Assembly: GCA_030141605.1 (NCBI GenBank)
Contig: JAQGDQ010000002.1
Span: forward strand, 2,588,501 to 2,652,500
Reading direction: 5' to 3'
DNA length: 64,000 nt
From: Tubiluchus corallicola
Lineage: Eukaryota; Priapulida; Priapulimorpha; Priapulimorphida; Tubiluchidae
The notes under the pieces are model-generated. The model was not told the DNA's origin and did no database searches. It worked only from the letters and a program-made list of their open reading frames with translations. Below are positions 9,401 to 58,985 of this stretch, one piece after another. A program made the translations under genes and the position numbers. The first letter of the stretch is position 1; each line of letters begins with the position of its first letter.

Positions 9401-10863
9401 CTATTCTCTTTGCAAGCTACTCTCCTGTTGTGGCATAGCTTGAATAAGCATCTGGATTCTTTCTAGTACAATTTCATTGGTGCTCTGACAGTCTGCTACT
9501 CCATAAGGGGGAAAAATGGTCACAGCATCCATAATTGTAAAAACACTGTCATGCTCTCCTGTCACTGCATAGGGGACTCTATTCTGTGTTAGCCAAGCTT
9601 TCAGTTTCTGGCTTTTCTCTTCCAGATTCTTTGCATCTTCTGTGGCAGGCTTATTTCGAAACAGTTTGTCCAAGAATTGTTTCAATGATGGTGTGGCATC
9701 ATTAAGAACCGTTACATTTCTTACAGCATGTCCAAGAATGAGATGTAAGCAGTCTGGTTGATGTGACTCATCCAGAGTAACGAGCACGAAACTGAAATAC
9801 AATTAAATTAACACACATTATTATAGTAGGCCTGAATTGCAAAATATTACAGTTTGCAATAAAGCAAAATGGAAACGTGATTTAGTGAATTATATAAACA
9901 TGCAGTGCTTAAAGTGCGCTGGGACTGTCAGAGTCGCAAACCCGGAATTTGAGTTAGACCCTGCACCTAAAGAAAAACAGTCTTGTGAGGTAGCGCATTT
10001 AGTTTTCTCACCGTTTAAATGCTATGAGCCTATTCATAACACGTTAATAGTGCAATTTCTGTCTTTCATTCAGCAAAATTGAACTGCAGATGCCAATTGT
10101 TACAATGGGCACAAATAGTTTTTTTGTACTGAGCTGCTGCGACCGCTTTATGATAACATGCTGCAACTTCTCAGGAAAAAAGAAAAAGGATAAGTGAAGA
10201 GTTAATTCATTTTACTGCAACTTATTTTGCTTTAGACTTGAAAAGTTAGGTGCAGCAAAATTTAGTTGTAATCTGTTGGCATGATTGTCTTTGGCGGAAG
10301 TATGTCAACATGTAAATTGGAGCTAGTGCTTCGTTTGCTTAGTGATTACTTATAGTTGATTTGATTAGAATATGATTTGAATAGGCCCAGACTTATACTG
10401 GGTAATTTATAAAAGCTACATGAAGAAAACTAGTTAATTATTGATAAAAAGCAATTTAATTCCCATTCCATCACAAATCATTTTAGTGGGTAGTTAATAG
10501 TTTCTTTCAAAATTTGCTTTTTTGCATCTTTGTTTGTTAACCATTGAATTATTGAAAGCATTTATTTTGTATTTGCGTTGATGTAAAATAAACAATCTCA
10601 ATCTTGGAATTTTGAAAAAAATCTTCTGACGATGTGCATCGTGGCGCAATGAAAATTTCTGTAAATTGAATTAAATAGACTGATAATACCAGGCACATGT
10701 ACCTTTCACTAACTGGATCCACTGTGTATACCCAGCCCACGTATGCTTTATCTTCAAGAGTTTTCACTTCCACCAACTTGTAAACGTATTCTTTTAACTG
10801 AGAAACATCTTGGTTAAATATTTGATGCTTTTTCTCGTTTGAAAAATTTTCTTCTATCGACAT
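9401..10863 (-). CDS. GEMIN6: Gemin6, SMN-complex subunit (2 exons, complete)
   Basis: Gemin6 heterodimerises with Gemin7 through an Sm-like fold and works in the SMN complex that assembles Sm cores on snRNAs. The minus-strand exons are 10863-10703 and 9791-9401 (TAG). The junction reads GAAAG/GTACAT...TTTCAG/TTTCG, a normal GT-AG intron. The joined frame is 183 residues against 167 in human. The N-terminal part has the Sm-like start (LKEYVYKLVEV, YVGWVYTVDPVSE). The second exon carries the family C-terminal region: LILGHAVRNV, LKAWLTQNRVPYAVTG, and VTIFPPYGVADCQSTNEIVL. The start ATG at 10863 is the first one upstream of the Sm-like block. The gene converges with NDUFAF7 and is head-to-head with ARV1, 1.8 kb away. 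Confidence 0.93.
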
Positions 10864-24846: not shown

Positions 24847-25250
24847 ACTGGTGGTCTGAGAGAGGCGCGCCTTTTGTACAAGTTTTTTCTTTATATTTAT
24901 TACCACCCTGCAAATGGAGGGATTTGTATGTATTTTATTTTGAAATAAATGAGATTTAATATAAAAAAAAATTATACTTATTTCAGTTTATTTTAAACAA
25001 CAACGACAAATGATGTTATGGCTAATTAAACTCTATGTTGAAATTTTTAATTAACTTATTAAAGAGTGGAGAGAGAGAGAGAGAGAGAGAGAGAGCGCTG
25101 ATCTCAAAGAGGCGCGCCTTTTGTGCACGTTTTTCTTTATATTTTGTGGGCTGTGCAGTTCAATTCATTTTAAACAAGAAAGGCCAATAACATTGTGGTT
25201 AAACTCTGTGTTGAGATTTTTTAAATTAAATTAACAGAGTTTATTTCCAC
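24775..25250. repeat. Duplicated (GA)n-containing block
   Basis: Two related segments (about 24790-25060 and 25070-25250) each start with a (GA)n run. Each is then followed by GAGGCGCGCCTTTTGT, a CTTTATATTT stretch, a TTTTAAACAA stretch and a TTAAACTCTRTGTTGA motif. Copy 2 is shorter. The repeat precedes the promoter region at 25.3-25.6 kb. Confidence 0.85.
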
Positions 25251-25330: not shown

Positions 25331-25626
25331 TGACGTCATGCATACGCTTTGACGCTACCCGCTTGTTTGCGCTGATTTGTAGCGGTAAAACTCCGCTGTA
25401 TTTCAATTGTTGTAACTCTGGTTTTGAGAATATGGAAAAAAATCTCCCTGTTCATTGCATCAGAATTGTGCGAACATTTTAAAGAAACGTTACTATCAGC
25501 TACTCAGTTATTTTTTTGTTTTTGATTTTCTCGTAAAAGTGTTTTTTTAGTATGCACTATTTTCTTAATTCTTCGCGTATGTGTACAGTGACCCGGTTGT
25601 TTCAGCAGCCAAGGCGACTATAAATA
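25331..25626 (+). promoter_or_regulatory. Candidate promoter: CRE plus TATA box
   Basis: TGACGTCA at 25331-25338 and CTATAAATA ending at 25626 (TATA box about 25619-25626) are spaced within 300 bp. The region is locally richer in CpG than its surroundings. It stands upstream of the SERTA-like ORF and of the repeat-exon array, so a transcript starting near 25650 could serve either or both. Downstream, a possible short exon at 25933-25975 is bounded by CTTTAG and GTGTGC. Confidence 0.45.
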
Positions 25627-26048
25627 CCACGCAATGTAAGTACTACGCAGTTGATGTGTTCGATTCGTCTGTTTCTGTTGTATTGCTGTTTTCTTCGAAA
25701 TTTCTGCAATAGTGATCAGCGATCTTCGGTTTTAACAGTTTCAAGACGTTCTTGTCTGAAATCTTCTGCCAGGAGGACTATATTGTTGTTAAATTCCTTT
25801 TGTTGGTTTAATACAACTAAAAATTTTCGTCGGTCTTGGATTTGATGTTTAGTAGTCTTAAAGTTATTTTGGCCGCATGGTTTAAAACTTCATATTGAAC
25901 TGTGGTTATTGTTTGTTATCTGTGTACTTTAGGGGCTGCCTCGAGAAGACGAACCTGGAGAGGCCCTTCTTAAAGGTGTGCATAATATTTTACTAATATT
26001 TTATCCTTAATTTATGAGTTAAAAATCTGAATTATAAAAAAGTTTGCA

Positions 26049-26459
26049 ATGGGCAGAGTAAAGACTGTCGATTTTTCGTTATCGACTTTTATTGAGGACA
26101 AGGATGTGACCAGATTACTAGAATTGTCTATAAAAAAGCGCCGTACTATACGCGAGAAAAGAAAGCCCGATTACTTGAAGCAGGTACTACTGCAGCGTAC
26201 AGTTTCTCGTGCTTGTGAAGATATTAGCAAAACACTGGACAGTTTGAATGCTTTACCTCCTTCGTGCAGTGGTTGGGAAGATCCGATTTTCCCGGTTTCA
26301 ACAATTCACTTGGATTCAGAACATGTTGTTACTACTGCATCACTGAATGCAGAAAGTCTTAGAGCACCATGCATAGATGATTCCATCTCTTTGGTAGTAG
26401 ATGAGCAGCCATTTCCATTGTCAAAGGACGAGTGTCTTTGGAGTGGGACGCCAAGCTGA
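26049..26459 (+). CDS. 136-residue single-exon protein, SERTA-domain-like (tentative)
   Basis: An intact ATG-to-TGA frame. Residues about 20-62 (VTRLLELSIKKRR... KPDYLKQVLLQR ... ACEDISK) match the SERTA spacing: a Leu/Ser/Lys helix, a loop, then a conserved Val-Leu-x-x-x-Thr helix. SERTAD and CDCA4 proteins are small transcriptional co-regulators with a short acidic C-terminus and their whole coding sequence in one exon. This ORF also ends in a mildly acidic tail (DDSISLVVDEQPF). The promoter-like CRE/TATA region is 0.4-0.7 kb upstream. No AATAAA follows within a few hundred bases (AGTAAA near 26530 is a weak alternative), so the exon might instead belong to a longer transcript running into the repeat array. 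Family assignment rests on pattern only. Confidence 0.55.
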   Translation: MGRVKTVDFSLSTFIEDKDVTRLLELSIKKRRTIREKRKPDYLKQVLLQRTVSRACEDISKTLDSLNALPPSCSGWEDPIFPVSTIHLDSEHVVTTASLNAESLRAPCIDDSISLVVDEQPFPLSKDECLWSGTPS

Positions 26460-26792
26460 AGCTCATTTTTTCACGTTTACTGAAATGTTTTACAGTGCCA
26501 TTTAAATAGTGCTAATACTACTGTATTTAAGTAAAGTTTTTCCTGTTAAATTCAAGTGTAATCTTTTTCAGCATCATTACGGTGTGCGTGTATTATTATT
26601 TTTTTAGGCAAAATGCAGTGCATGTTACATGCTTATAATACCTTCAAAAATTTGTAACGTAACTGTTTTACAGGCTTGTGCAAAACTAATGTGTCACAGT
26701 AAAGACTTTGATGTGTTCTAATTGCTGTTGCTTTTAATAGGTTTCTGTGTGGTGCATGTATTTGTAATTATTGTTCTTTTCCAGGCACAGCA

Positions 26793-27143
26793 TAATGTTG
26801 TTCATATGGTGGCCAACACAGTCAAGTAGGCACATCTGGGATCTTCCCATTTGCTGCAGATAGCACTTCGTTTCTCAGGTCGTGTATGAAATGTAGTATT
26901 GTTTGAAAGGGTGTTTGCGGGCAAATGCCAATTATGATTAAATTCAATTTTGTTGTAAATATGACTTGTAATGTTGTTCATATGGTGGCCAACACAAGTC
27001 GTGTAGGCACATCTAGGATCTTCCCATTTGCTGCAAATGGCACTTTGTTTCTCAGGTCGTGTATAAAATGTAGCATTGTTTAAAAGGGTGTTTTACGGGC
27101 AAATGCCAATTGTGATTAATTGTGATTTGTTGTAAATATGATA
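26793..27143 (+). repeat. 176-bp tandem duplication at the start of the noncoding array
   Basis: Copies at 26793-26968 and 26969 to about 27143 share TAATGTTGTTCATATGGTGG, ATCTTCCCATTTGCTGC and a GTTTCTCAGGTCGTGTAT segment. They differ by scattered substitutions. A TTTTCCAG acceptor-like site precedes copy 1 at 26784. TTTCTCAG/GTCGTG in each copy could be either an acceptor or a donor. Confidence 0.9.
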
Positions 27144-27999
27144 ATGTATGTTTTATATTAAATTTGTCTGCACAGTACAGTTTTATTTTAAGGGCTGTTT
27201 ATTTTTTGTAGTTGAATGGGATGGGTTGGGAGGGGGTTCATTTAATCCATTCTTTTTCTTGTAGCTGCACATCTAACTCTGGATGATGAGCATTGAATTT
27301 GTAAGAGCTGAAGTCAGACAATCAACCAACTGGACTGGTGCAGGCCAGTAGTACAGATTTGATGACTGTTTAGAATAATATCTGTCCTAAATGCTTACAT
27401 GGTGACTAAAAGATAAGGCTGGGTATGTGGGGTGTTTGTGTATTACACTTACAGGTGCAGATGCGATTTTCCAAAACCAACATGTCCACGTCCTCCTCGT
27501 TGCTGATGTCGTGTATATGAGAGTGCTAAATAGTACAAAACACCGTCATTGACAGCTATGTGCAAAGCGGTTGAACAAAAAGTAGGCATATTCACGTCAA
27601 CTCTAATGCAGGCCAGTACACTGTCTAAGGTTTATTTTGCTGTTTGGTTTTTTTATATTTCTCTTGATTAACTTGACAACAGAATATCGTTTGTGTGTTG
27701 TTTCTTAATTGCACTTACAGATCCAGGCCAACTTGCAAGATTCGCTTAAAGCGGCCGCATTTGTTCTCATTCTGATTGATTGCCGAAAGAACTGCAGTAA
27801 AGGTAGATCTAAATGCACGTGGAGAGATTACTTGTGACAGCATTGACTTTTGATTGCCAAAAGAACAGCAGTAAAGATAGTTCTAAATGCACATGAACAA
27901 ATTACACATCACAACATTGACTTTTGACTTCAGGCCAGTATAGTTAGTTCTTGCTAAATTGGTTTTGCTAATTTTGTAGGCAAGTGCGCATTGGCTTGT

Positions 28000-29973
28000 A
28001 GGATGTTCTTTTATTACACTTACAGATTCAGGTTTGCGGAAAACGCTTGTTCCAGATCTGATGCATATCAAATGCAAACAGTTTCAGAACAACACTACCA
28101 ATAGATTCATAAGTACATGTGGCCAAAGTTCTCGGAACCATGTGAGTCCTCCTGGAGGCTAGTACAACATCTTCTTAAAGTTGAAGGTTGGGCTGGTATA
28201 TGTGGTGTCTTTTTATTACACTTACAGATACATCTTTGCAAATCATTGAAAGTTGGCTTCATTGTATTCAAGTTGTAGAAGCTTAATCTGGCCGTTTGAG
28301 TTTCCGTGTGCAAGAGCTGGAAATTTGATACACGCAACCAACTGGACTGGTGCAGGCCAGTAGTACAATTTTACTGACATTGAAATTTCAGCTAATGTAT
28401 ATTATTAAAATTTCCGTAACTGCTCAGAATTACGCGCTTGGTAGCTAAAAGATAACAATTGGTATGTGGGGTGTTCGTTTATTACATTTGCAGGTGATTT
28501 TGCAAAATTCAAAGATCCCTATCCTTGTTGCTGATCTGATGTATGTGAAGTGCTGAATAGTACAGAACATCAGTATTGACGGATATGTGCATGCAAGCAG
28601 CTGAACAAAAAGTAGACAACCATGTCAATTCTAATGCAGGCCAGTGCAAGTGTCTTAAGGTTTTTCTGCTGTTCATTAGTTTCTTTCGATAATTGCTCTG
28701 ATTAACTGTGTGCAGGCTACTACAACTTACTAAATTGAAGGGTGGGCTGGTATGCGTGGAGCTTTTTTAATTGCACTTACAGATTTGGCTTTGCAAGTCA
28801 CTTAGAGACCCGTCTGTTTACGTCTTGAGACTGAAAGCAAAAGTGTCGAAAAGTCGACAGTAAACGTATTGGAGCTGTAGAAGCTTGATCTGGACGTTTT
28901 GAGTTTTCATATGCAAGAGCTGAAAATTTGAGTAGTATACATTTATTTAATTTTAGGCAAAATTAACTTCACAAGCTAAAGATGGGTTTTGGTATGTGGT
29001 GTGTTCTTTTATTTACACTTACAGATGCACTGGTGTTTGGAAAACTCGTTTAAACGCCCATGTGTTTGTTGCTGGACAAGTAATGTGCACGACATACTGT
29101 ATAGTACAAAACATCGGCAGCGGTGAATATAAATACATGCAAGGAGTCTTAAAATGGTGCCAACTGCATTGCAGGCTAGTACAGTGTACATGATTGTTTG
29201 CTGAAGTTTTAGTCTTCGATGATCTATGAATTACCTTCATTGCTAAAATATACATGTAATTTGGTTTGTGCTATTTTTTTAATTGCACTTACAGATGCAG
29301 ACAAATTTGCGAGGTACACTTAAAACCTGTCTCTGTTTTGAATTTGATCGAAATAATAACAATCTAAAGACAACACATGAACAGTTGCGCATAACCACAG
29401 ACTCCATTGAAGTCAACGGAGTAGAACCTTACCAAAATTACATAGAACAGCATCAACGCAAGTGCAGGCCAGTACAGTTTACTAAATTACGTAGGCAATT
29501 TTATGGGTTGGTGGGTTGGTATGCAGGGTACTTTTTGTTACACTTGCAGGAGCAGAAAGATTTGCCAATTACACCTGTCAGTGATTTGCACATCAATGCC
29601 AAAAATTGCATAACAGCAGTTGCAACACGCTTTAGAACGACGGACAGTTCAAGTGCACATGACCACATCGCTTTCATACAGGCCAGTACAGTCTTCTGCA
29701 CGTTTTTCTTTGGTTGTTTAACAGCTGACAAGCATGGTTTCGGCATGCAGGGCGTTTTTTTTATTACACTTACAGATGTAGAAAGATTTGCGAGAATACA
29801 CACACTGCCCCTTGATTTGGTACACATCACATGTAGAAAATTGCATGACAGCGGTTACAATGGATGTCTAAATACATGAGCAGACTGACAGCGTGCAGAA
29901 CCGTATGAGCTCTCATACAGGCCAGTACAGCTTTCACTGAATAATTTTGTAGGTAAGATGCGCATTGGCATAT
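28000..29973 (+). repeat. Higher-order unit, copy 1 (1974 bp)
   Basis: First copy of a ~2.0-kb unit containing eight array segments. It is offset from copy 2 by 1974 bp at its start and by 2005 bp after about 28930, because copy 1 lacks a 31-bp piece there. Apart from that, differences from copy 2 are rare substitutions and indels. Confidence 0.93.
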
Positions 29974-31977
29974 AGGATGTTCTTTTATTACACTTACAGA
30001 TTCAGGTTTGCGGAAAACGCTTGTTCCAGATCTGATGCATATCAAATGCAAACAGTTTCAGACCAACACTACCAATAGATTCATAAGTACATGTGGCCAA
30101 AGTTCTCGGAACCATGTGAGTCCTCATGGAGGCTAGTACAACATCTTCTTAAAGTTGAAGGTTGGGCTGGTATATGTGGTGTCTTTTTATTACACTTACA
30201 GATACATCTTTGCAAATCATTGAAAGTTGGCTTCATTGTATTCAAGTTGTAGAAGCTTAATCTGGCCGTTTGAGTTTCCGTGTGCAAGAGCTGGAAATTT
30301 GATACACGCAACCAACTGGACTGGTGCAGGCCAGTAGTACAATTTTACTGACATTGAAATTTCAGCTAATGTATATTATTAAAATTTCCGTAACTGCTCA
30401 GAATTACGCGCTTGGTAGCTAAAAGATAACGATTGGTATGTGGGGTGTTCGTTTATTACATTTGCAGGTGATTTTGCAAAATTCAAAGATCCCTATCCTT
30501 GTTGCTGATCTGATGTATGTGAAGTGCTGAATAGTACAGAACATCAGTATTGACGGATATGTGCATGCAAGCAGCTGAACAAAAAGTAGACAACCATGTC
30601 AATTCTAATGCAGGCCAGTGCAAGTGTCTTAAGGTTTTTCTGCTGTTCATTAGTTTCTTTCGATAATTGCTCTGATTAACTGTGTGCAGGCTACTACAAC
30701 TTACTAAATTGAAGGGTGGGCTGGTATGCGTGGAGCTTTTTTAATTGCACTTACAGATTTGGCTTTGCAAGTCACTTAGAGACCCGTCTGTTTACGTCTT
30801 GAAACTGAAAGCAAAAGTGTCGAAAAGTCGACAGTAAACGTATTGGAGCTGTAGAAGCTTGATCTGGACGTTTTGAGTTTTCATATGCAAGAGCTGAAAA
30901 TTTGAATCGAACCAATTCGACGACAAGTGCAGGCCAGTAGTATACATTTATTTAATTTTAGGCAAAATTAACTTCACAAGCTAAAGATGGGTTTTGGTAT
31001 GTGGTGTGTTCTTTTATTTACACTTACAGATGCACCGGTGTTTGGAAAACTCGTTTAAACGCCCATGTGTTTGTTGCTGGACAAGTAATGTGCACGACAT
31101 ACTGTATAGTACAAAACATCGGCAGCGGTGAATATAAATACATGCAAGGAGTCTTAAAATGGTGCCAACTGCATTGCAGGCTAGTACAGTGTACATGATT
31201 GTTTGCTGAAGTTTTAGTCTTCGATGATCTATGAATTACCTTCATTGCTGAAATATACATGTAATTTGGTTTGTGCTATTTTTTTAATTGCACTTACAGA
31301 TGCAGACAAATTTGCGAGGTACACTTAAAACCTGTCTCTGTTTTGAATTTGATCGAAATAATAACAATCTAAAGACAACACATGAACAGTTACGCATAAC
31401 CACAGACTCCATTGAAGTCAACGGAGTAGAACCTTACCAAAATTACATAGAACAGCATCAACGCAAGTGCAGGCCAGTACAGTTTACTAAATTACGTAGG
31501 CAATTTTATGGGTTGGTGGGTTGGTATGCAGGGTACTTTTTGTTACACTTGCAGGAGCAGAAAGATTTGCCAATTACACCTGTCAGTGATTTGCACATCA
31601 ATGCCAAAAATTGCATAACAGCAGTTGCAACACGCTTTAGAACGACGGACAGTTCAAGTGCACATGACCACATCGCTTTCATACAGGCCAGTACAGTCTT
31701 CTGCACGTTTTTCTTTGGTTGTTTAACAGCTGACAAGCATGGTTTCGGCATGCAGGGCGTTTTTTTATTACACTTACAGATGTAGAAAGATTTGCGAGAA
31801 TACACACACTGCCCCTTGATTTGGTACACATCACATGTAGAAAATTGCATGACAGCGGTTACAATGGATGTCTAAATACATGAGCAGACTGACAGCGTGC
31901 AGAACCGTATGAGCTCTCATACAGGCCAGTACAGCTTTCACTGAATAATTTTGTAGGTAAGATGCGCATTGGCATAT
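29974..31977 (+). repeat. Higher-order unit, copy 2 (2004 bp)
   Basis: The complete copy, with eight segments starting at 30000, 30202, 30468, 30757, 31030, 31300, 31555 and 31780. It has the full-length end of the fourth segment (CAAGTGCAG/GCCAGT at 30932) that copy 1 lacks. A one-base T-run difference near 31762 changes the open frame relative to copy 1, which argues against coding constraint. Confidence 0.93.
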
Positions 31978-32979
31978 AGGATGTTCTTTTATTACACTTA
32001 CAGATTCAGGTTTGCGGAAAACGCTTGTTCCAGATCTGATGCATATCAAATGCAAACACTTTCAGACCAACACTACCAATAGATTCATAAGACATGTGAC
32101 CAAAATTCTCGGAACCATGTGAGTCCTCATGGAGGCTAGTACAACATCTTCTTAAAGTTGAAGGTTGGGCTGGTATATGTGGTGTCTTTTTATTACACTT
32201 ACAGATACATCTTTGCAAATCATTGAAAGTTGGCTTCATTGTATTCAAGTTGTAGAAGCTTAATCTGGCCGTTTGAGTTTCCGTGTGCAAGAGCTGGAAA
32301 TTTGATACACGCAACCAACTGGACTGGTGCAGGCCAGTAGTACAATTTTACTGACATTGAAATTTCAGCTAATGTATATTATTAAAATTTCCGTAACTGC
32401 TCAGAATTATGCGCTTGGTAGCTAAAAGATAACGATTGGTATGTGGGGTGTTCGTTTATTACATTTGCAGGTGATTTTGCAAAATTCAAAGATCCCTATC
32501 CTTGTTGCTGATCTGATGTATGTGAAGTGCTGAATAGTACAGAACATCAGTATTGACGGATATGTGCATGCAAGCAGCTGAACAAAAAGTAGACAACCAT
32601 GTCAATTCTAATGCAGGCCAGTGCAAGTGTCTAAGGTTTTTCTGCTGTTCATTAGTTTCTTTCGATAATTGCTCTGATTAACTGTGTGCAGGCTACTACA
32701 ACTTACTAAATTGAAGGGTGGGCTGGTATGCGTGGAGCTTTTTTAATTGCACTTACAGATTTGGCTTTGCAAGTCACTTAGAGACCCGTCTGTTTACGTC
32801 TTGAAACTGAAAGCAAAAGTGTCAAAAAGTCGACAGTAAACGTATTGGAGCTGTAGAAGCTTGATCTGGACGTTTTGAGTTTTCATATGCAAGAGCTGAA
32901 AATTTGAATCGAACCAATTCGACGACAAGTGCAGGCCAGTAGTATACATTTATTTAATTTTAGGCAAAATTAACTTCAC
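31978..32979 (+). repeat. Higher-order unit, copy 3 (partial, ~1.0 kb)
   Basis: The first four segments only (starts 32004, 32205, 32471, 32759). Identity with copy 2 stops abruptly after TTAACTTCAC at 32979, where unrelated array sequence resumes. Near identity of the three copies implies recent unequal exchange. Confidence 0.93.
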
Positions 32980-34078
32980 TGCTTATCAAACCTGCTTTGT
33001 TCGCTGATCTGATGTACATCAAATGCCGGAGTACAAAACTGTTATATTGCAGATAAACCTCGATACATATTGATACATATTGAAGATGTAACTACACACA
33101 AGCAGTAACAAACTTCACCAAACCATGGCAACCCTCATACAGGCCAGTATGTTATTTGTGTGCTTTTTCTATTCCTTATTGTTTGGTGGGTGGTGTGTTC
33201 GTTTATTACAGTTGCAGATGTGGAAGAATTGACAAAAATGTATGAACTGGAACCTTTGTCCCTGATGAAAAGTTCAAAACAACAGTTAATAACAGATGTC
33301 TAAACACACATGAACAGATGAACAAAATGCACAGGGCTGTATGTGAACTACAAGAGTGAATTGGTATGCTGGGTATTCTTACACTTAAAATGCAGATTTG
33401 CAAAGTGTCACCTGTCTGTTTGCACATCAATACCCACAAAGCAATGCAAATGAAAGCAAATGCAGGCCAGTACAGTTTTTCAATATTGTGTTGTGCAGCA
33501 TTCCATTTTATTATACATCGAGTAATTGACTGGAGTCGATGACATGGTTTTGCATGCTTGGTGCCATTTTGTTACACTTGCAGATCCAGTTAGAGTTAAA
33601 AAATTGTTACAAGGCTGTTCATTGCAAGCCGTCGGCATATCAGATGTTAACTGGTACGTGACAGTTGCTGAATCTAAATATAGTAAGCAAGTCCATGGTT
33701 GCATGCACTTTAAATGTTGGAGTGTACAATTGGTGCTGAATTGGGATGAGCAACTGATGTGAGTTCAGGTATGCATTTCTGATGGTAAGAAAATGTCACT
33801 TGTCAGACTTCATCTTCTGGGACTTGTAAAACCCTGTCAACTCTGGATGCTACTGACTGTGTGAATTTTTTCGAAGATTACTTAGATATTTGACTTAATG
33901 TTTGTGGTCCGTTGTGTTTTTATTACTAACTAGTTGGGGGGGGGGGGGCTGGAATTAATCATTCACATTTATGTTTTAAGCTTCATTCTGCATTTTTTTG
34001 CTTTTGCCATTGTGAATGAAGAGAATTAAGACTGTCGAGAATGCTGTCGATCAGAGTGAACCTATCAACACCTGCAAG

Positions 34079-36094
34079 GCCAGTAACGTTTTGGTCACTA
34101 ATTTATATTCGAGACATTTTTGCATATTTGGAACTGCATTTCCAGAGTTAATTTTAAAATGGTAGCTAGAAAAATTGTGTGTGTGTGTGTGTGTGGTGTG
34201 CTATTTTATATTTACAGGTCGTTGCTGTTAGAAACCCTCCATTGTACGAAAGAAAATGTTCAGAGTCCTAACATTGAGTACATCTAGAAATGTGGAGTGT
34301 TTGAAGGAGCTGTCAAGAACTGATATGATTTTTGATCTTTAGCAGTCTGTAGGATAAACTGTGAGCATATTAATAGAATGTTTTTTATCCAATTTAGTCG
34401 TTAATTACAACTTCTTCCTTCTATTTGGAATTTACCACACTTCTGAATATATATGTATCTATATAATCTGTGTTAACTGAAATGTTTTTATTTTTGCTCG
34501 ATTTTCTGTATGTGTCTTTATTTATTTAATGTGGATTAACAATGTAGCAGTGATTTTTAGTAGCAGGGAAGAAATTGTGGGGCATGTGTGTTTTTACTTC
34601 TACAGGTTAATAATTCTGCCACATCAACTGCAGTGGCGAGACAAGTAGTGTCAAGATCTACCGAAGATGAGTGAACAGTGTTCATGGCATTATACGTGTG
34701 TATCTAATGTGGTAAAATTCTTTTGTCGAGTTTCTATAGGTGGTATTGATACATGTAAAAACGGGTTGGGGTAGGTGCAGTCAAACTGGTATTCTTTAGT
34801 TCTTTTTCGAAGTTCTACGATCTGGTTATGAAGTCTAGGAATAGTGTTCAACAGCGATGTACTCCGTTTAATAATGGTTGGCAGAAACTGTGAGAGGATT
34901 CTGAACGCCAAGGCTTGTGCTGCTGTTTATTTTCAAATTCATTTTGGATCTTTTTGAAAAGTTGCTTAATTTCAACACAACTTTACTATACCTTTGTGAG
35001 TGTGACTTCTGATAATATTGTATATATATATATATATATATGTTGATAACCTCAGTTCTCACACTTTGCCATCGCATTTTGTAAATTTCTCGTTTAAACC
35101 AATGCTCGTGTTTTGTGCTCACTTATGATACTTTATGCTGCTTTGATTTTTTTTATTTTTATGCTTATGGTAACTGTGTATTGTGAATTTGGGTGGATAA
35201 GCACTTTATGACTCTGCATTTAACATCGCTCGAGTTTAGCAATATTGACTGTGACAGCAAGACCACATGTTTTTCACTTTGTGTGATTACTCTGTACTAT
35301 AAATTTTCGTGATTTTCGTAATTTTAATTTGCTATGGTGTTTTATATACATTTGCTTGTGTGTGGAAGTGCTGGTTGAAATTCTTTTAATAGTTGCTTTT
35401 ACCAAGGAGATAGTGTTTACTTTGTCTCCAGTGAGTTTATGACTCCAAAAACTAGTGATACTTGTTTGGTGACCCACTTTGTATCGCAGTATTCCATTTA
35501 TTGTATATTTTTATTATCGTTGTGTGTTTTCGTGATGGTAGTATATGCGAGTTACGACAGTTTTGTTCTTCGGGTATCATGGTTTTCTGTATTGTAACAA
35601 AGTAATGGTGGCCATACCAGAAGAAGCCATCTGTGAGCAGTTTGGAGCAACTTGTGGTAAAGAAAGTAAACTTCACTTTTGGAACAGCATAATTGTGGTA
35701 AAATAGCATATTTTCTCTACTGTGTAGTATATTAAAGGCTGTGAGCTAAAATAACCTGTTCAGCTTTTCTGTAAAAACAATACTGTGCTAATTTCCATTT
35801 TGCATGTGTTGCAAGATAGTTTTCATATTTTTATAGCACCCTGTTGCTAACTATGGATCAGGTTTATGTTGGAATGCTATATAGATCCTCGGTTACCTAG
35901 TGGCGCCTTGTTGGCTGTTCCACTGCTATTTTGTTTGTGAAGAATGTTGGGACACTTGGTAAGCACGGAATACTAAAGGTGGTTGCATATGAACTTGAAG
36001 ATGTCTCATTTTGCAAGTAATACCAAACACCTTAACAAAATGTTTGCTTACTTGATTTCTAATGGATGTTTTTTGTCTCGTGAAATCTTGTGTC
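34079..36094 (+). other. Transition region of the noncoding locus; simple repeats only
   Basis: Two more acceptor-like sites (TATTTACAG near 34218, CTTCTACAG near 34605) follow GTG-rich runs, as in the array, but I see no clear donor partners. It also contains (GT)n at 34176-34194 and (TA)n near 35022-35041. A 13-base G run lies just before, at 33936-33948. No protein gene was found. Confidence 0.4.
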
Positions 36095-36372
36095 ATCTTG
36101 TTGCCAGCTAAGTTAGTGTGGTGTTAAAGCTTGCCTTTTAAATAAATTGCAATTATAATTTGCGTGGTGATGTGCTACTATCGTGTTTGGATTACATAGT
36201 GTGAACGTGATAGTTTATACAAAACTATTTTTGATCTTGTTGTCAGCTAAGTTAGTGTGGTGTTAAAGCTTGCCTTTTAAATAAATTGCAATTATAATTT
36301 GCATGGTGATGTGCTACTATCGTGTTTGGATTACATAGTGTGAACGTGATAGTTTATACAAAACTATTTTTG
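36095..36372 (+). repeat. 139-bp tandem duplication
   Basis: Copies 36095-36233 and 36234-36372 are nearly identical, differing at a few positions (for example GCCAGC versus GTCAGC, and GCGTGG versus GCATGG). The unit begins ATCTTGTTG and ends with TTTATACAAAACTATTTTTG. It sits between the first and second repeat families. Confidence 0.95.
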
Positions 36373-36479
36373 TGACAATTGTATGCACATTATATGCTTT
36401 TGAGTGTAACACATTCGTAATTGTGGTGTACATATTCATTTGCCAAATTCTTTAAAATATTTAATTTTGTGTTTTAGTT

Positions 36480-39360
36480 TTGTGGATAAACGGGTGTGGT
36501 CAAGTTTTTTTTTGTTGCAGCATAGAATGTTTTGTTAATATAGTGCAGTTAGCTCTTCCAAATTGGCTTTCAACACAAAATCAGCCCTGACACTTCTTCA
36601 GTTTTGGCTTTCAATGAAGGATCTCATTGGAATAGAGTACAGTTTGGAAGCGGTTTGGCATTTGATTAAGGCTGTGTTAGTCGATGTTTGGGCATATGTG
36701 TACGAATTTAATTTTACTGATTTTCATTTCTGAAATTTGTTACGCAGGCATGTTGTTGTTTAGTTTAGTATGTGTTATTCTGTAGCTTGTGCTGCTTCCA
36801 GTCTTTTCCAGTTTGCTCAAAATCGTATGAACAAGAATATTTTCGCAAAATTTGTTTCGACAGGTGAATAAACTACAAACTTCTGAAAAATAGTGCTAAC
36901 TGTCGTGTAAAGATGTGTCATCTTGATGGATTGGCTGTGCTGTGCAGTATGTTGTTACAAGCGGTTTGGACTTTGTATCACTTTATAATTGTAATTTATT
37001 TTGTATCAAATACTGGAATCTGTTAATGTCGAAGTTTGTAATTTTTCGTCTCATTTGTAATGGTGTACTTTTAGTGTGCTACATTCCGTTATCAAAAAAT
37101 TGCATGTTGACTTTTAGGTTGTCAGCTTTCTCAGTTCAGTAGCTTTTTGCTTAATTTAAAATAATCATAGCATTATATTAGAAATGAGGTTTTTCTTTCA
37201 AAGTTTATATTTTGACAGGTCAAATTGTAATTGAAATGAGCAGTGTAAATGCCTTGTCATCAATTATAGTTGACTCACCATATTGGATTGGGTACGCCGT
37301 GGTTGTTGTCACAAGCAGTTTGGAATTGTATCAATTAATTTTCTTTTTTATAATGCTTCATTTTACTATTTAGAAATGGTGCGCGTTTGTATTTAAAGTT
37401 AGCTTAAACTTTCCATTTGTTCATACTCCGAGTAACAATGCAGTTCATGAACTTAAACTTAACTTGTTGAATACATCGATGTTTATTTTTATGGGGTCAT
37501 TTAAAATTTTCACAGGAATACTAGCATTTTCCAAGATAACTAAACTAGTCACGGAAAAATCGACGGATGCCATAATAAAAGCACTGTGCGGTGTAGCTAT
37601 TAATGTAAAAGGTACAATTGATTAAACATGATGTAATAATGTACACGAACTGTTGCTTATAAATGCAGTAACTTTAATTACTTAAATTTCTCAAATGAAT
37701 TGTTTCATTGGTTTTCATGTTCTACTATTTATCAGTTGTTGCAAGAGTAAAGGGCGTGGGGAAGATTTTTTTATTGTTGCAGTATTGAGCTGGCATCTCG
37801 TTTCGTGGAGGGTCTTGCGTACTGATTTGTTAACTAAAGAGATTGTTGTCGGAACAACTTGCAGTGCACGGTTTACAAGCGGTTTGAAATGTATCGTTTG
37901 TTTATTTTTCGTTCAAACATATTAGAGCTATTAGTACGTTACGAAACATATTGGAAATATAGTTTTGCATTACAAAACATTGGTTTAGTTTTGTTGTTTC
38001 AAGTGATTCATAAACTAAAAGTGTGTGTTATGGACAAAAAAATTTTCTGTTAAATTTTTTTAACAGGATGCAAGGTTTTTTCCTCCGAGGCAGTGCATGT
38101 ATTTTCTGTATGTAAAGAGTAATTGGAAACTGGTGAGCCAAGGTTAAAGATATCTGTTTTGTCTTTTGTGAAATACTTGTGTGTGATGACCTACTTTTGT
38201 TAGTCACTTTAATTTACTGCTTACATCGTAAATAACGTGATTGTTACTGTTTGACTTCTAATTTAAAGTGCATTACAAACTATGATTCTTGATCTTGCAA
38301 GTTAACATTGTTTTTTGGGATGTGGGGTTTGCTTTTTTCTCTTTGACAGATTTGCTTCTGCTGTCACTTCCGTCTGCATTCTAATGCATTTATACAAATT
38401 TGATTTATCATCTCTACTTGTTAAAATGGACTTCTTGGACACGAAGCTCTTGAGACGATTTCTATATTGCACACAACAGCCTCTGTGAATACTTCAGATC
38501 TCCAGGCAAGCAGTAGATAATTAATTCCGTTCTTCCAGTCATATTTTAATTATTTGTGCATAGTTTTTGTTGATGACGAATTTATGCTTTGGGGATGTGG
38601 GGTTCTCTGTTTGACAGGTTCTTCGCCATTGCTGCACAAGCACTTATCTGCTAATCTGATGTCCCTTTGCTCATAATGCAACCTTGCTGCTGATTTCTTC
38701 AATACAGTGTATATACATACATAAACACAAAAGGAGTTGCCAAAAACTGGTTAATTCATCAAGACAGGTAAAAAGGAACTGGTGTACAGTAAGTGAATAC
38801 AGAAAGCAAACAAATAAGGTACTGCTGTAGTTTCATTCATTGACAAAACTTTGTTAAACTGGAATATCATGGATATTAGCTTTACAAAAAAAACTTGCAA
38901 GATGAATGAGTTCTCTAAAATATATTACGAAAAACATTTCTTAATTTGTCTTGTTTTATTGTCATTCTATGGTTTACGCAATCTATTAGTTTTTGGTTGT
39001 TGTCGTGTTTTGTGCGAGTTTTGACAGGAGTAAAGGAAGTCCCACTTGTTCTCTGACGAGATGTGTAGTGCCAATTTCACTTTAGTGGAAAAGGATGGTT
39101 ATCGATGCTGTAGGCTATCTACTGTACGCTTTTCACCTCATGTCTGATGTCAAATGATTTTACATTTCTTGAACTGGGTAACTGTCATTTTCTTTTCACT
39201 GTATTCTCACTATATTGTAATTTCATTTGGCATTTCTCTGTTTTTTGTAATAAGAGCATTTTACTTTGTAACAGTCATGATTTTGGTTTCTTCGAAAATA
39301 ACTATTGTCGACGTGTGTGCGTGTCTGAGTTGTTTTGACAGGTGAAAAGATGTACCATGT
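36480..39360 (+). repeat. Second repeat family of the noncoding locus (~300-bp spacing)
   Basis: Acceptor-like TTTGACAG, TTTCGACAG, TTTAACAG or TTTTCACAG recurs near 36864, 37219, 37516, 38067, 38350, 38618, 39027 and 39342. Between them a diverged motif ACAAGCGGTTTGGA plus TTGTATCA recurs near 36648, 36957, 37315 and 37877. One segment (38351 to about 38505) ends in CCAG/GCAAGC, a strong GC donor. The next (from 38619) ends in GACAG/GTAAAA near 38766, a GT donor, giving ~150-nt exon-like pieces as in the first family. Open frames here are short and inconsistent. Confidence 0.5.
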
Positions 39361-39399
39361 TTGGTGTCCCTTCACCTAAATTCTTGGAAAGAACCACCA

Positions 39400-40260
39400 C
39401 ATCACTTGGGGTTTCTACATTTGTCCAAAAATACACAGAAGGGAATAGCCATGCCTAGGTCATTGACATCTGTAGGTGCTGTGCCATACCCATGGATAAC
39501 TGGAAAATAGCCAGGTTCAAGCCTTCAACGTTTTTAGGCATTGCATTTCTTCGATACCATGGACCATGGAGAGCTAGGAAATAATAAAGTTCTGAGTCAC
39601 TGACCATGTCCAAATTTTGATGTCTGTAGATGAGTGTATCATGGAGAGCTAAGGATGGCCATTTCCGCTCAATGATGTAGATGCACTGCTGAATTTCTTC
39701 ATTACCTTGGAGAGTATGTGAATGTACCTGGGAGAGTTAAGGATGGCCCTGTTCACTCACTGCTATGAATAGGCCCAGTGCTGAATTTCTTCATTACCTT
39801 GGGGAGTTAGGAACTGGCTGGGTCCGGTTTCACGAAAAGTGCGGAGAGCAGAGGAAATCCAGGTCCAAATTTTCAGTGTTTTAGGCATTGAACTGCTGTA
39901 AAGAGCTTAAACTAGCCAGGTCCAAGTCAATGTCTTCAATACCACAGGGCGCAGGAAATAGCCATTTGTATATTTAATCCACTACCTTATGTAGGTGCTG
40001 AGCTGCTTCATAATACTGTATCATGGTGAGCCATGGAATCTCATTATTCGAGCCTTTGCTGTGTTTAAACTCTGGTCCGTAATGTGGAGAGTTGGGAAAT
40101 GGTGAGGTTTATTAAGCATGGCGAGGACAAAGTCACTGGTGTTTGTAAACAGCTGAAATTTTCTACTTGCCTTGGCGAGTCGAGGACTACCTTGGTGCAG
40201 GTTGCTGTTGTATGTGAATACCATAGGGAGCAGGGAATGCTATTTTTTCAACATTTCGTA
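39400..40260 (+). repeat. Third repeat family: degenerate ~70-110-bp tandem units
   Basis: Diverged units share ACCATGGAGAGCTAGGAA, a GCCAGGTCCAAGTC stretch and TTTAGGCATTGAACTGCTTC-like sequence. Examples are near 39541-39600, 39655-39735, 39735-39815, 39880-39955 and 40015-40110. Identity among units is low, so the array is old compared with the 2-kb higher-order unit. Confidence 0.7.
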
Positions 40261-40623
40261 ATTCTCTTCTTTGATGATTGTGTGTCGTACACTAGATTTG
40301 TCACCATTTGCACCTAGATTGTTACTGTACTTGTGTTATTGCGTCGTTTAAATCATTTGAAGTCTATGTGAAGGATCTAGTTGAAAGTAAGTGTAAGTCG
40401 ACACGTTCTAACATATTTTAAGAACAATTCTATTTTTGCACATTGTTCAACAGTAAACCTGTATTTTGTTCAAATTTAACAGTAGTGCTTTCTAGTCAAT
40501 TTTTCAAAATTCAATTACTGGATTGTTGCATTTACCACTTTATATTCATTGTGCCAGGGGGAGAGAGAACTCCTTCTGCTGGTCAGAGCATGGGAAATCA
40601 CACCTCCCCCTCCTCGAGAAGAA

Positions 40624-45433: not shown

Positions 45434-46424
45434 ATGACGGAAGTCAACCGTCAGTTTGTGTGTACCAACCGAGCAGAGCTGGAGAACAAATTTGTTGAAA
45501 TGGGAATCGAGTATGAATCTGTAGAACATCCCGAGGTATTAGTTAAACCGTATTTTTACACTAAAAGAATGGGCTTGAAACTGAGAGACGGGACGTATAT
45601 AGCTTGATTATTAATGACACAAGTCTTATTATACTTTTTAAGTAGGTTGACTAATAACTAGCTAAAAAATTGATGCGGCAGAATTAACTTGATGTACAAT
45701 AACTGCAGTTTAGTTTAGACAGTTGGATCATATAAATTGATTCCGTCAGCGATGCACTTGTGCAGTTACAATAATTTGTGATTGGAAACAAACAAGAAAG
45801 AGAGGTCCCATAAACAAAAATTGTATGAATGCTGTTGCTGCATGGCTTTCTGCCCATGGAAAAAGTGCTTGGTTTGGTAAAGGCGCCATAGGTAATCTAG
45901 ATGCTAACAACAGTTTAACAGATGGTGACATGTCTGAAGAGTTAGCATTTACATTGTTAATGAGATATGTCCATTGGCATTTTAATTTTTATGTTTTTCA
46001 GGTTTTTACCGTTGAAGCGATGATGCCGCATGTCAAACATGTCACTGGTGCACATTGCAAAAACCTATTTTTGAAAGACAAGAAAAAACAATTGTATTTG
46101 CTCTCAGCGAAACATGATTGCGAAATTAAGTTGAATGAAGTTTCAAAGCAAGTTGGTGCAGTAGGAGGACTAAGACTAGCTGATGAGAAAACACTGTTTG
46201 ACAAACTTGGGGTTAAGCAGGGTTGTGTTACTGCATTTGCATTAATTAATGATGCCAATCTTCATGTGAATTTTTTACTAGATGATGATTTGGTAAATGG
46301 TGGACATGCGAAAGTTTTCTTCCATCCAATGGATAATTCAGCATCTACTGGTATTTCTCCAGTAGATTTCTTGCGCTTCTTGCACATGACTGGACATAAG
46401 CCGGTTTTAATAAAATTTCGTTAG
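45434..46424 (+). CDS. PRORSD1: PRORSD1-like prolyl-tRNA synthetase associated domain protein (2 exons, complete)
   Basis: A free-standing YbaK/INS-type editing domain; relatives hydrolyse mischarged aminoacyl-tRNA(Pro) in trans. Exons are 45434-45535 and 46002-46424, with a phase-0 GT-AG intron (CCCGAG/GTATTA ... TTTCAG/GTTTTT), 174 residues. Seen: MGIEYESVEHPEVFTVEAMM across the junction, HVTGAHCKNLFLKDKKKQ with the conserved lysine region of the pocket, AKHDCEIKLNEVSKQVGA, and RLADEKTLFDKLGVKQGCVT. The end is SPVDFLRFLHMTGHKPVLIKF. The ATG at 45434 gives the usual short N-terminal helix; the length is close to family members (about 165-175). Reading through the first exon stops soon after, which confirms the intron. 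Confidence 0.93.
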
Positions 46425-55100: not shown

Positions 55101-56551
55101 TACTGATATTGAAGTACTTTGTTTCGTTCTAACTTTAACTTTAGAAAGAACTGTTCATTCTTACATCTAACATTTCGTGAGCCTGGAATATCTAATCCAG
55201 TAGTTGTTAAACTAACACTACCCGCTGTACACGGCCTATGAGAGGTGTTCATAAGGTCACCGAGACCATCAAGTATAGAACTGCCAAGTATAATAAAACT
55301 ACATATAATATATAATATAGTGACATATTTTACCGAATTACTTTGGAATCCTGGTTTTGCGGACTTGTCGAAAGCCTGTTACCTGGACGTACATAATCAT
55401 GTCTTACGGTCAAGGTCAATCGTTATTTTTATTCAGGCTTCCAAATGAAAATTGGAAACTGCATCTTTCACGATCACATTTTGCTATGAAATTATCGAAA
55501 AGTTAAACGAAGCTTTTTATTTTTCTGTCGAGCGAATGTACCTTGAACACGAAATGGCATTGCTTAGCAGACTGAAAAATCACGCAATAGAGTATAAGAA
55601 TCCAGCTTTGAATTAAGTTTTGCAAATCAGTTTACATTCTGCATGCAAATATGCGGTGGTTGCAGCTTTTTCTAAGGGCGCCTCCGTTTTTTCTCGGATG
55701 ATGTAGCATCATGATGATTGGCACAAGTACTGGAAGAAGGAAAATTATAACCGCTACGGCCAGAAGTACGACGGCGGCGGTAAAGGCAATGTAATACTAT
55801 ACGGCAAAGCCAGCAAGAACAAGGGGAAAGGAAACTTCTACTTCAGTAAGGGAAAAGGTAAGCGAAAGTGTTTTTTGAACATTTTAACGAATGATTTGTG
55901 TTTAAAGTTATATCAGTTGTATGACCTTTCTCGCAGACTACAATGGCGCAACGAATTAGATCTGTTTATTGTGGTATTAGTTACGCAGCTGTTAATTGAC
56001 ATGGTTTAAAGTAAAAAAAACAGACAAATTTTTGCTTATAAGAAAATATTCTTACAAGTTCTGTTTCTTGCCTTTTATTTTTCAAAGTTGTAACTTTTTT
56101 TCGCTCACGCACAGAAAAAACACCTTTGTATTTTAACGACACCTCATAACATGGCACCAGGCCTCCTAAAGGAATTTAAGCGACACTAAATTTTTTTGCG
56201 CGAAAATAATCCCCGATCTAGTTTGGAAACCTTACATTTTTACCTATAGTTCCCGATCTTGCGTCACTTCCACTATGTGAGCAATTTCTAAAGCATAACG
56301 AAACTGTTCCGTCTTAGACCACTGCGCCACCTCCGCATTACCTAGAGTATTTAATTAGTGCTAACAACACGCATTCTTTAGGTAAATATTTCTACGATAA
56401 CTACCACAAAGATAATGGAGGAAAGAAATACTATGAAGACAAAGGGTACAAATCCATGCATAAAGGAAGAGGGTATCATGATGGGAAGGGAAACAAGCAT
56501 GGCAAAGGACAATACGGAAACTATCACAAATATTACGCAATGGAGCACTAA
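52114..56551 (+). CDS. Secreted Gly/Tyr/Lys/His-rich protein, module plus terminal cassette A (4 coding exons)
   Basis: Coding exons: 52114-52155, 53505-53675, 55707-55857, 56382-56551 (TAA), all GT-AG, 177 residues. The first exon and start of the second make a signal peptide (MNKLLFCSTVGAAL + IAVVLCQG). The second exon then encodes GYG/GGH repeats (GGGYGDHGGGYGGGGGGYGH). The third exon is Lys/Tyr-rich (QKYDGGGKGNVILYGK, NFYFSKGKG). The fourth is Lys/His/Tyr-rich (FYDNYHKDNGGKKYYEDKGY, GQYGNYHKYYAMEH). No Cys is seen after the signal peptide. The composition suits an extracellular structural or matrix protein, but I recognise no named family. The coding exons of cassettes B and C downstream repeat exons three and four. 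Confidence 0.8.
53188..53460. repeat. Degenerate internal repeats (ACTAATCCAGA-type)
   Basis: GACTCCACTAATTCG, GACTCCACTAATCCAG, GACTCACTAGCCC and ATTAATCCAGACTG recur irregularly over about 270 bp in the intron before the Gly-rich exon. This style is common in sub-terminal parts of DNA-transposon MITEs, but I could not find matching ends. Confidence 0.4.
56250..56345 (-). mobile_element. tRNA-derived SINE head (partial)
   Basis: The reverse complement of 56311-56329 is TGGCGCAGTGGTCTAAGAC, an almost perfect tRNA/SINE A box, preceded by GCGGAGG. No convincing B box or cloverleaf follows, so this is a decayed SINE or tRNA relic rather than a tRNA gene. It ends about 37 bp before the last exon of cassette A. 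Confidence 0.5.
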
Positions 56552-57909
56552 GTCTTGTGAACTTTCTGCCACTATCGTCAGAAGAGACGATAATAATTGT
56601 TTGAGTAGTCATATATCATTTATATAAAAAGTTTTACTTTCCCCGTGTTTAATATTTTTCAACCTTTTGGTTTACGAAAACCATTGCAGATGTAATTAAT
56701 TCGGCTAAAAAATTCGTACTCATATGACAAACGATTGGGATTGGGTTATTTATAATGGGGCCGTTTCATATTTGCAACTTGTTGTAATTACTGTGAAAAA
56801 CAAAATAATCAATTACGTACGTTTTAAAAGTTAGATTAACCTAATGCAGATAAAAAGAAGCTGGGTGAAACTTCACTGAAATTTTGGTGAAAAGTCTTAG
56901 AAAAGATGCCATGAGTTTGATGCAGACTGTTGTTGTCAAGATGATTAGTCATTGTTGTAAGGCGGAATTATTTTGTTGTTCAGTTAAAGTGTACGTGTTT
57001 TATCACACAATTTACATAAAGATGAATTTTTAACCGTAGATTGCATACTTCTCTGTTATTGTAAATTTCCGTTTGATAACAATTTACCATAATTTGTTAT
57101 ATATGTTCCTGTTAAACTTTATTTCGTCTAAAATACAAATTTTTGTTACAAAAAAATCATTTTGTTGCGTTTTTGACTAAGGTGTTACCAAAATAATAGT
57201 CTCAAAATTTCAGTAACTGAACGTTTAGGCAGTCATAACGAAATACTTACGTATGATGGTTTTATCATTTTACATTGTTACCGTGTTTATGTTTTCATCA
57301 TTTTTATCATCGATCATACTTTCTCTAATGATGATTCCTTTACGGCATTAACTAACGTAAGTATCTTTGCAATTTTATTTTTGTCTTTTACTTTTACTTT
57401 ATTTGTTTTAAATAAATGTTCAGTATGACGATTTAGTTTGAAGTAATTTCGTTGTAATCACTTATAGTCTCTAAACTGTTGCTTCAATTAATTAGTTTAA
57501 TAACATTTTTTAACTATAATATAGTAGTCCTGTATTGCATGATTAATCGTTCTTTTTACTCTTTTCACATGAATAATTTTGTTTGTTTCAACTTTTCTTA
57601 GACTTGACTAATTATCGCTAACCCCTCTAAACATTGAATCAAAAATAGAGGATTTTAATTAAATGCTTATTTAATAGTTATAATCAATATAGTCCTAACG
57701 AAAAATATCTTTGTTTGAGTTTCCAAAGGAGAAACTATTGTCATTGTTTGATTTTCTTTACCTAAGTAAGTTATAACTAAACTATAAGTTAAAATCTATA
57801 ATTGAAATTGTTGAAGTGCTTTGTATTTTAAGTGTAACACTTTTTGCGTTTCATTTTTATACGTAATAATTATCATGAAGAAAACCTCAGCTGATGTCTG
57901 TTTGTGCAG

Positions 57910-58797
57910 AAATACTACAATCAACATTACTATGATCGAAAGGGAAAATACGATAAATACGAGGATAAAGCTGACTGGGGTGGAAAGGGAGATGTCTTCC
58001 TGAAAGGAAAAGAAAGCCATAACAAAGGGAAAGGCAAATTTTTCTTCAGCAAAGGCAAAGGTAAAGCCACAGCAAGACTGACATGAGTGTTAAATTTCTT
58101 GATTTTCTATGTTTCTTTAGATTGATAAGTTTTTTTTTCAAACGAAATACACTAAGATACTGCAAATTACAGCGATGTTTTCAGCTATTATATCACTTAA
58201 ATTTTACGATTTATTTTGGTTAATTTCCGTTCATTTCTTTGTGCAAGTTAGATATTAAGGATCGCCCAAAAATGAAAAAATACTTATTTCGGAGTATTTC
58301 AGCTTCTTCTGTGTGTTCACAGATTAGATTCATTAAGACAATATGGAGTTTTTTTTCTGAATAGAAGAGATAGAAATCAAATATAAAATTTGGTCAGTTA
58401 GTGTGAAAGCTGAGCAGAAAAAGATGAGAGAAAATGAGGGAGGAGAGAGAGAAAAAGAGAGAGGGAGAGAGAGCGACAGCGACAGCGAGAGCGATAGCGA
58501 GAGAGCAGAGAAAGGAGGAAGGGAGGGAAATGAAGAAAAGGAGCTATACAGCGTAACTTATTATAATATGTACATCAAATTGACTTTAATACCTAATGTG
58601 TTAATAACTGTTTCTGCAATATTACAGGAAAATATAACTATGACAATTACCATCAAGACAAGGGTGGGGAGAAGTATTACCTTGACAAGGGCTATCATAG
58701 CAAATATGGCGGCGATGGTTGGTTTCAAGGATCTGGAGAATGGCATAAAAAGGGCAATTACGGAGGCATGCACAAGTACTACAACCCACACGATTAG
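57910..58797 (+). CDS. Terminal cassette B of the secreted-protein locus (2 exons)
   Basis: Exons 57910-58060 (151 nt, phase 0 in, phase 1 out) and 58628-58797 (170 nt, TAG). Both lengths and phases are identical to cassette A. The encoded parts are YYNQHYYDRKGKYDKYEDK, WGGKGDVFLKGKESHNKGKG, FFFSKGKG, then NYDNYHQDKGGEKYYLDKGY and GEWHKKGNYGGMHKYYNPHD. There is no signal-peptide exon of its own that I can find between 56.55 and 57.91 kb. The entry phase fits a splice from the Gly-rich exon ending at 53675, giving a 177-residue alternative form. AATAAA at 58980-58985 would end it. Alternatively it is a separate gene whose first exons I missed. Confidence 0.7.
58427..58530. repeat. GA-rich and GACAGC/GAGAGC simple repeat
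   Basis: A purine-rich tract (GAGAGA runs plus GACAGCGACAGCGAGAGCGA) in the intron between the two cassette B exons. It reads through as a Glu/Ser/Arg-rich open frame, which I treat as a by-product of the repeat. Confidence 0.85.
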
Positions 58798-58979
58798 AGA
58801 CGACAACATAATCACCCGATCTTCTAGACAGCGTGATCAGGAATTTTAACTGGTCTCTAATGTGCCACAATTTTATAACATCCCGTCTTTCCCATTTTCA
58901 ATTCACAACATTACACAACACCAACACCAACAGAGCGATTTCATTTGTTATAATTTTGGTGTAAAAATATCTTTGTTTT

Positions 58980-58985
58980 AATAAA
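58980..58985 (+). terminator. Candidate poly(A) signal after cassette B
   Basis: AATAAA lies 183 bp after the TAG of cassette B, a normal spacing. It suggests cassette B transcripts can end before cassette C. Confidence 0.55.

Follow-up and report, generated by a model that had tools for sequence, protein, structure and literature searches.

What could give one locus a long run of exon-like segments that end at GC rather than GT donor sites? The preliminary description of this DNA (the window, a 64-kb stretch in whose numbering all positions are given) counted about 25 noncoding segments ending at such sites and proposed either a specialised splicing system or an RNA motif that mimics a donor. 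The word [ACG]AGGC[CT]AGT occurs exactly 25 times in the 64-kb window, always on the plus strand and between 27341 and 34084, compared to 1.62 occurrences expected on both strands, and none of 100 shuffles reached 25. The count is real, but the sites are not independent: 24 of the 25 fall within a single homologous family. They belong to units E1-E3, seven units in block copy A, eight in copy B, four in copy C, E12, E14, and E16. An eight-unit block recurs in these copies, so the 25 sites reduce to 14 distinct ones, 13 of them in the family. The E16 site lies outside the family and within the chance expectation, and it may be a chance match. The series is bounded by the following sites, in which a slash marks the predicted splice position.

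27341..27349, plus strand: first GC donor, CAG/GCCAGT, after E1 (27265-27343)
33463..33471, plus strand: last GC donor within the family, after E14
34076..34084, plus strand: 25th site (E16, 34079), AAG/GCCAGT, outside the family

Donor positions were compared in 15 tabulated sites, the 14 distinct GC sites plus the decayed GCTACT at 28716, which falls outside the set of 25. Their sequences read GC at +1/+2 in 15/15, and A-2, G-1, G+1, C+2, A+4, and T+6 are invariant, with +5 G and +7 A each present in 14/15. At +3, ordinary GC donors carry A or G. The +3 purine of an otherwise strong GC-AG consensus was found in none of the 15 tabulated sites, which have C (12 sites) or T (3 sites), and the other U1-pairing positions are kept; the missing +3 A had been noticed correctly. 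The kept donor bases pair with the 5′ end of U1, with eight matching bases surrounding the mismatches at +2 and +3. Predicted U1 duplexes, calculated for short duplexes of unmodified RNA, are -7.2 kcal/mol for GCC and -8.1 kcal/mol for GCT sites, compared to -7.3 kcal/mol for the GT site after E15 and -14.0 kcal/mol for a canonical site.

The repeated units were collected with a nhmmer profile built from 13 of them. The profile gave 28 matches, all on the plus strand, with aligned parts spanning 27266-33625 and the last envelope extending to 33682, and its matches in the window are confined to the array. A block of eight units (E4-E11, about 2 kb) is present in about 2.5 copies with start-to-start spacings of 1974 and 2002-2005.

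27265..33682, plus strand: array, exon-intron units of one homologous family, about 28 slots, some decayed, defined by the nhmmer profile
27985..29958, plus strand: block copy A, E4-E11, seven GC donors, found as direct repeats with spacing 1974
29959..31961, plus strand: block copy B, E4-E11, GC donor in 8/8 units
31962..32979, plus strand: block copy C, partial, E4-E7, four GC donors, joined to E12

Over 1975 aligned bases, copies A and B are separated by 7 substitutions; the 1005 aligned bases of B and C contain 8, of which three sit at the edge. Unit E7 of copy A lost its GC donor through a 31-nt deletion (indel at 28931). The copies, which differ by substitutions and this indel, may be a false duplication from two haplotypes. 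Differing bases number 9/1737 in exons and 6/1243 in introns, and the youngest block copies show no exon constraint as yet. In a tree of the units, copies cluster by unit type, E5 joins E7, and E2 joins E6 less firmly; 6 of the 14 inner branches are weak, and E12 and E3 are long. Pairwise scores exceeded z 3 for 18/55 exon pairs, 72/78 pairs of whole introns, and 7/78 pairs of introns without their ends, counts in which E6 was placed one base off and from which, as from the exon coding counts, E1, E13-E16, and the younger block copies were dropped. Because the units share ancestry, the z-scores of these pairs, the p value for base composition, and the shuffles used for duplex energies and open runs overstate independence. 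Common descent through tandem duplication accounts for the GC donors occurring in a run, and their number is no argument for a specialised splicing system. The survival of a donor with C or T at +3 stays surprising after descent is taken into account.

Conservation within the units is concentrated at the putative splice sites. Mean majority identity is 0.96 across the donor (-3 to +7) and 0.92 across the acceptor (-16 to -1), compared to 0.78 in the intron block from -35 to -17 and 0.59 in exon interiors (10 of 13 units, distinct from one another; E12-E14 were dropped). The best 10-column exon block in these ten units reaches 0.75. All invariant columns of the intron alignment but one lie within the donor and acceptor blocks, and three of the four invariant columns of the exon alignment are at the exon 3′ end. 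Base composition reverses between the two compartments: exon interiors have A 0.345 and T 0.257 (12 exons), and intron interiors have T 0.406 and A 0.265 (13 introns), a contrast with a p value of 5e-5 if the units were independent. These data, together with the better U1 pairing of the GC register, support the earlier view of exon-like segments with GC donors.

The acceptor side was searched with TTRCAYTTRCAG. Allowing one mismatch or fewer, there are 28 matches in the window compared to 6.15 expected, and the exact word is found at 23 plus-strand sites between 27443 and 33583. An exact copy precedes 21 of the 25 GC segments, consistent with the report that most begin after an acceptor, and CAG ends the intron in all 13 tabulated array sequences. 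The four segments without an exact copy are E1 (TTTTTCTTGTAG); E12, which sits at the junction of the third block copy; E14 (AAAATGCAG), which has lost its acceptor; and E16, for which no acceptor was identified. Inspection by eye showed that the GC donor is missing from the units at 28783 (E7 in copy A, the first copy) and 33218 (E13), and that a GT site at 33769 follows the unit at 33584 (E15).

27443..27454, plus strand: first TTACACTTACAG acceptor, before E2 (27455-27611)
28716..28782, plus strand: unit remnant, decayed donor GCTACT directly after GTGTGCAG, exon gone
33584..33768, plus strand: E15, last family member, homologous at its start only, then donor-like CAG/GTATGC

Splicing on the minus strand was considered because the reverse complement of the acceptor resembles a GTAAGT donor, and it was rejected. 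A G at -4 in 4/13 copies breaks the GT, the plus-strand CAG is invariant by eye in the tabulated copies, and the other end reads ..TGG (TAG in the GCT units) with no steady AG by eye.

Strand composition was measured as GC-skew minus AT-skew in 1.5-kb bins. The value is 0.11-0.40 in the ten bins from 25501 to 40500, and the plus strand from 25.5 to 40.5 kb has T > A and G > C. The maximum of the 43 bins, 0.40, occurs at 34501 and again at 36001; bins within the array have only 0.11-0.12, and bin 13501, far outside, reaches 0.25. This asymmetry favours a plus-strand transcript, with stronger support downstream of the array than inside it.

25501..40500, plus strand: possible transcription unit, suggested by strand asymmetry

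The array is probably a multi-exon lncRNA gene on the plus strand whose exons, the segments described here, multiplied by tandem duplication and carry the donor CAG/GYYAGTA. The homology of the units, their duplication history, the constraint on their splice sites, the strand composition, and the lack of a coding pattern are observations; transcription, splicing, and function of the array are inferred from them. The ancestral unit would have comprised an exon of about 150 nt, the last part of the preceding intron, and the first part of the next; it would have been copied head to tail repeatedly, and a block of eight units would have been duplicated again later. The descendants would share a GC donor because the ancestral 5′ splice site was CAG/GYYAGTA, and selection would have preserved the splice sites as the exon bodies drifted. 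U1 would pair with CAGG and AGUA around a two-base mismatch, giving a weak and usable site, and exon definition would be aided by two further signals, the TTRCAYTTRCAG/AT acceptor, which is fixed, and the G/T-rich block that precedes it. Weak donors among look-alike exons would be expected to cause exon skipping, products that differ in exon number, and perhaps circles, and the mature RNA would consist of diverged repeats strung together in the manner of Firre. Several findings weigh against this interpretation: the donor is weak (-7.2 compared to -14.0 kcal/mol) and unlike ordinary GC donors at +3, some units have lost donors or acceptors, the skew in the array is a modest 0.11-0.12, exon constraint is not seen in the young copies, and a 198-codon run is present. 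If the array is spliced as drawn, its series of GC-AG introns would be exceptionally long, and we know of no longer one. The array would also provide a natural test of U1 tolerance for mismatches at +2/+3 with both flanks paired, and an invertebrate lncRNA built from duplicated exons in parallel to Firre. The exon bodies have diverged and the splice sites have not, so the array records what the sites need.

The array may instead be plain tandem-repeat DNA, or generate small RNAs, with its conserved blocks acting as motifs bound by proteins on DNA or RNA instead of as splice sites, and the GC site may be an RNA motif that resembles a donor without being one. The donor and acceptor are atypical and are lost in some units, and the motifs exceed what splicing needs, with an acceptor core of 12 nt. 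Against this, the invariant bases are those critical for splicing (the acceptor AG and the CAGG and AGTA of the donor), the composition reverses between exon and intron, and the flanking sites resemble an ordinary acceptor (E1) and an ordinary donor (E15). We judge the plain repeat rather unlikely.

The introns carry a further conserved element. A donor-like word (G[TC][ATG][TG][GA]) lies 31-33 nt upstream of the acceptor in 14/14 introns, a rate that has no chance control; GYNTGY is found in 11 of the 14, GT in 10, and GC in 4.

28195..28212, plus strand: G/T-rich intronic block, GTATAT 32 nt before the E5 acceptor

RNAalifold analysis of 13 introns predicts a helix between the donor and this element. 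In the alignment 89.7% of the cells pair, compared to 20.5-41.0% when the element is slid. A change on both sides was seen in 0/9 pairs, and shuffling partners among the introns paired equally well in 202/500 trials. The mean duplex energy of -10.4 was reached by 3/500 column-permuted controls and 1/500 plain shuffles, and a window 50 nt further upstream is lower still at -11.0. The predicted pairing of the element with the GC donor is suggestive only, and the element could be a bridge between splice sites, a donor mask, a decoy donor, or a G-rich enhancer. A loosely defined branch-point-like word, [CT]T[AG]A[ACT], occurs 44-65 nt before the acceptor in 12/13 introns and is absent from I12, again with no chance control. 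RNAalifold predicted zero pairs across ten exons. Rfam gave no match in the window at gathering scores, and the single sub-threshold match was a bacterial sRNA (E 3) at 34914-34997 on the minus strand, outside the array. A docking site was not detected between 24 and 42 kb, where the best place scored 14.8 and column-permuted controls scored 15.1 ± 0.9.

A more elaborate form of the lncRNA interpretation is a noncoding gene whose run of exons is defined by one co-inherited set of signals: the GC donor with a +3 pyrimidine retained through selection, the fixed 12-nt acceptor, and an element that pairs with the donor. Every element would pair with every donor, so splicing could link each exon with any of those downstream. 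The resulting repeat RNAs would vary in length or form circles, perhaps with a U1 variant assisting. We regard this form as unlikely.

Splicing at other sites in the same sequence was also evaluated, using either CCA/GTAC four bases downstream of the GC site or mini-introns of about 32 nt that run from TTG/GTATGT to the same acceptor. In 14/15 tabulated sites a GT at +5/+6 is followed by a purine, and the donor-like word present in all 14 introns (GT in ten, GC in four) could supply the start of a mini-intron. The overlapping GT register is disfavoured, with a predicted U1 duplex of only -1.7 kcal/mol compared to -7.2 kcal/mol for the GC register, and the donor-like word is loosely defined, with a match rate that has no chance control. 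Introns of 32 nt are below the usual length for animal splicing. Use of these other sites is very doubtful.

Coding tests were mostly negative. The lengths of 7/11 exons are not multiples of three, and 7/11 have stops in all frames, leaving an open frame in 4/11. Ten exon pairs have 94, 109, and 104 mismatches summed by codon position, and 70 of their 92 indels break the frame. One pair, E2-E6, shows a third-position excess (4, 7, 15). The longest open run in the spliced array, 92 codons, was reached by 121/300 shuffles. A stop-free run of 198 codons (29283-29879) crosses E9-E11 and two introns and was matched by 1/300 mononucleotide shuffles of the unspliced array; removal of the mini-introns leaves 187 codons, reached by 0/200 shuffles. 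It has no homolog at E ≤ 1 in a set of 5.8 billion proteins, and we take this mild anomaly as chance. Alignment by hand places E4, E9, and E10 in a common register, joined by E8 after a 1-nt gap. The array has no Pfam match. That the units are coding or decayed coding exons of a repeat protein is highly improbable: the long run, the four open exons with their common register, and the E2-E6 excess speak for it, but the even mismatches, the frame-breaking indels, a spliced run no longer than in shuffles, and the lack of Pfam matches and homologs speak against it.

A search of a narrow range of open-access literature returned no account of such an array, and the closest known architecture appears, by analogy, to be that of Firre. 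Passages in the cited papers describe a local repeat, RRD, of 156 bp (PMC7734150) that is present in 7/13 human and 11/23 mouse Firre exons (PMC4820808), other local repeats being intronic (PMC4820808, PMC7734150), and report that the repeat-bearing central FIRRE exons appear mostly in RNA circles when human ES cells differentiate (PMC5910558). The array likewise has a local repeat of about 150 nt across many exon-like segments, its exons being predicted from sequence, and the repeat and the exon-like bounds that it overlaps are both present. Unlike Firre as these passages portray it, the array duplicates the exon and its flanking intron ends as a unit, and a series of GC donors is not mentioned there for Firre. 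GC-AG introns make up 3.0% of human lncRNA introns compared to 0.8% in protein genes, according to the relevant part of PMC7242645. The array resembles the lncRNA GC-AG introns outlined there and in part of PMC7072748 in its GC donor, AG acceptor, weak donor, short introns, and noncoding character, but it is a whole run at one locus, arising by descent, and it has C or T at +3. Tandem Dscam exons, as summarized in PMC6071210, share the duplication of exon plus adjacent intron and a conserved intronic element before each copy, whereas Dscam-type exons are protein-coding and mutually exclusive and use a common docking site. Eurytemora and Oikopleura, in the section of PMC7072748 that treats them, also have non-canonical invertebrate donors with a U1 variant as a possible helper, but these are GA donors found genome-wide, compared to GC donors at one locus here.

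The array lies between the C-terminal domain of Gemin6 (9401-9802, minus strand) and PRORSD1, a tRNA-editing domain (45741-46424) whose best named matches are from the nemertean Lineus longissimus, the sea urchin Lytechinus variegatus, and the brachiopod Lingula anatina, which indicates DNA of a bilaterian invertebrate. The initial statement that every intron resolved in the neighbouring genes is GT-AG holds for the single donor checked, in a control PRORSD1 intron (GAG/GTATTA ... TTTTTCAG). The likely Gemin6 acceptor, TATTTCAG, has no homolog backing. A single-exon ORF of 136 amino acids (26049-26459) lies just 5′ of the array; it had no Pfam match up to E 10 and no homolog at E ≤ 0.1, and its presumed resemblance to a SERTA motif is unsupported by Pfam. 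Two-copy duplications are found in or near the array locus at 26793-27141 (177 nt) and 36095-36372 (139 nt), and others at 39631-39807 (about 88 nt) and 24852-25144 (about 47 nt, 247-nt spacing). A weaker 60-nt pair is at 36927 and 37284 (E 0.002). Between 35636 and 37887 there are five plus-strand words like AGCGGTTTGG with one mismatch or fewer, compared to 1.85 expected, and 2/100 shuffles reach five; they are perhaps a further diverged repeat. Two exon-like stretches were noted by eye at 38340-38780, with acceptors after GGATGTGGGG and donors CAG/GCAAGC and CAG/GTAAAA, and they look like more distant members of the putative array gene. The secreted-protein locus at 55722-60632 contains diverged repeats with 71-73% identity.
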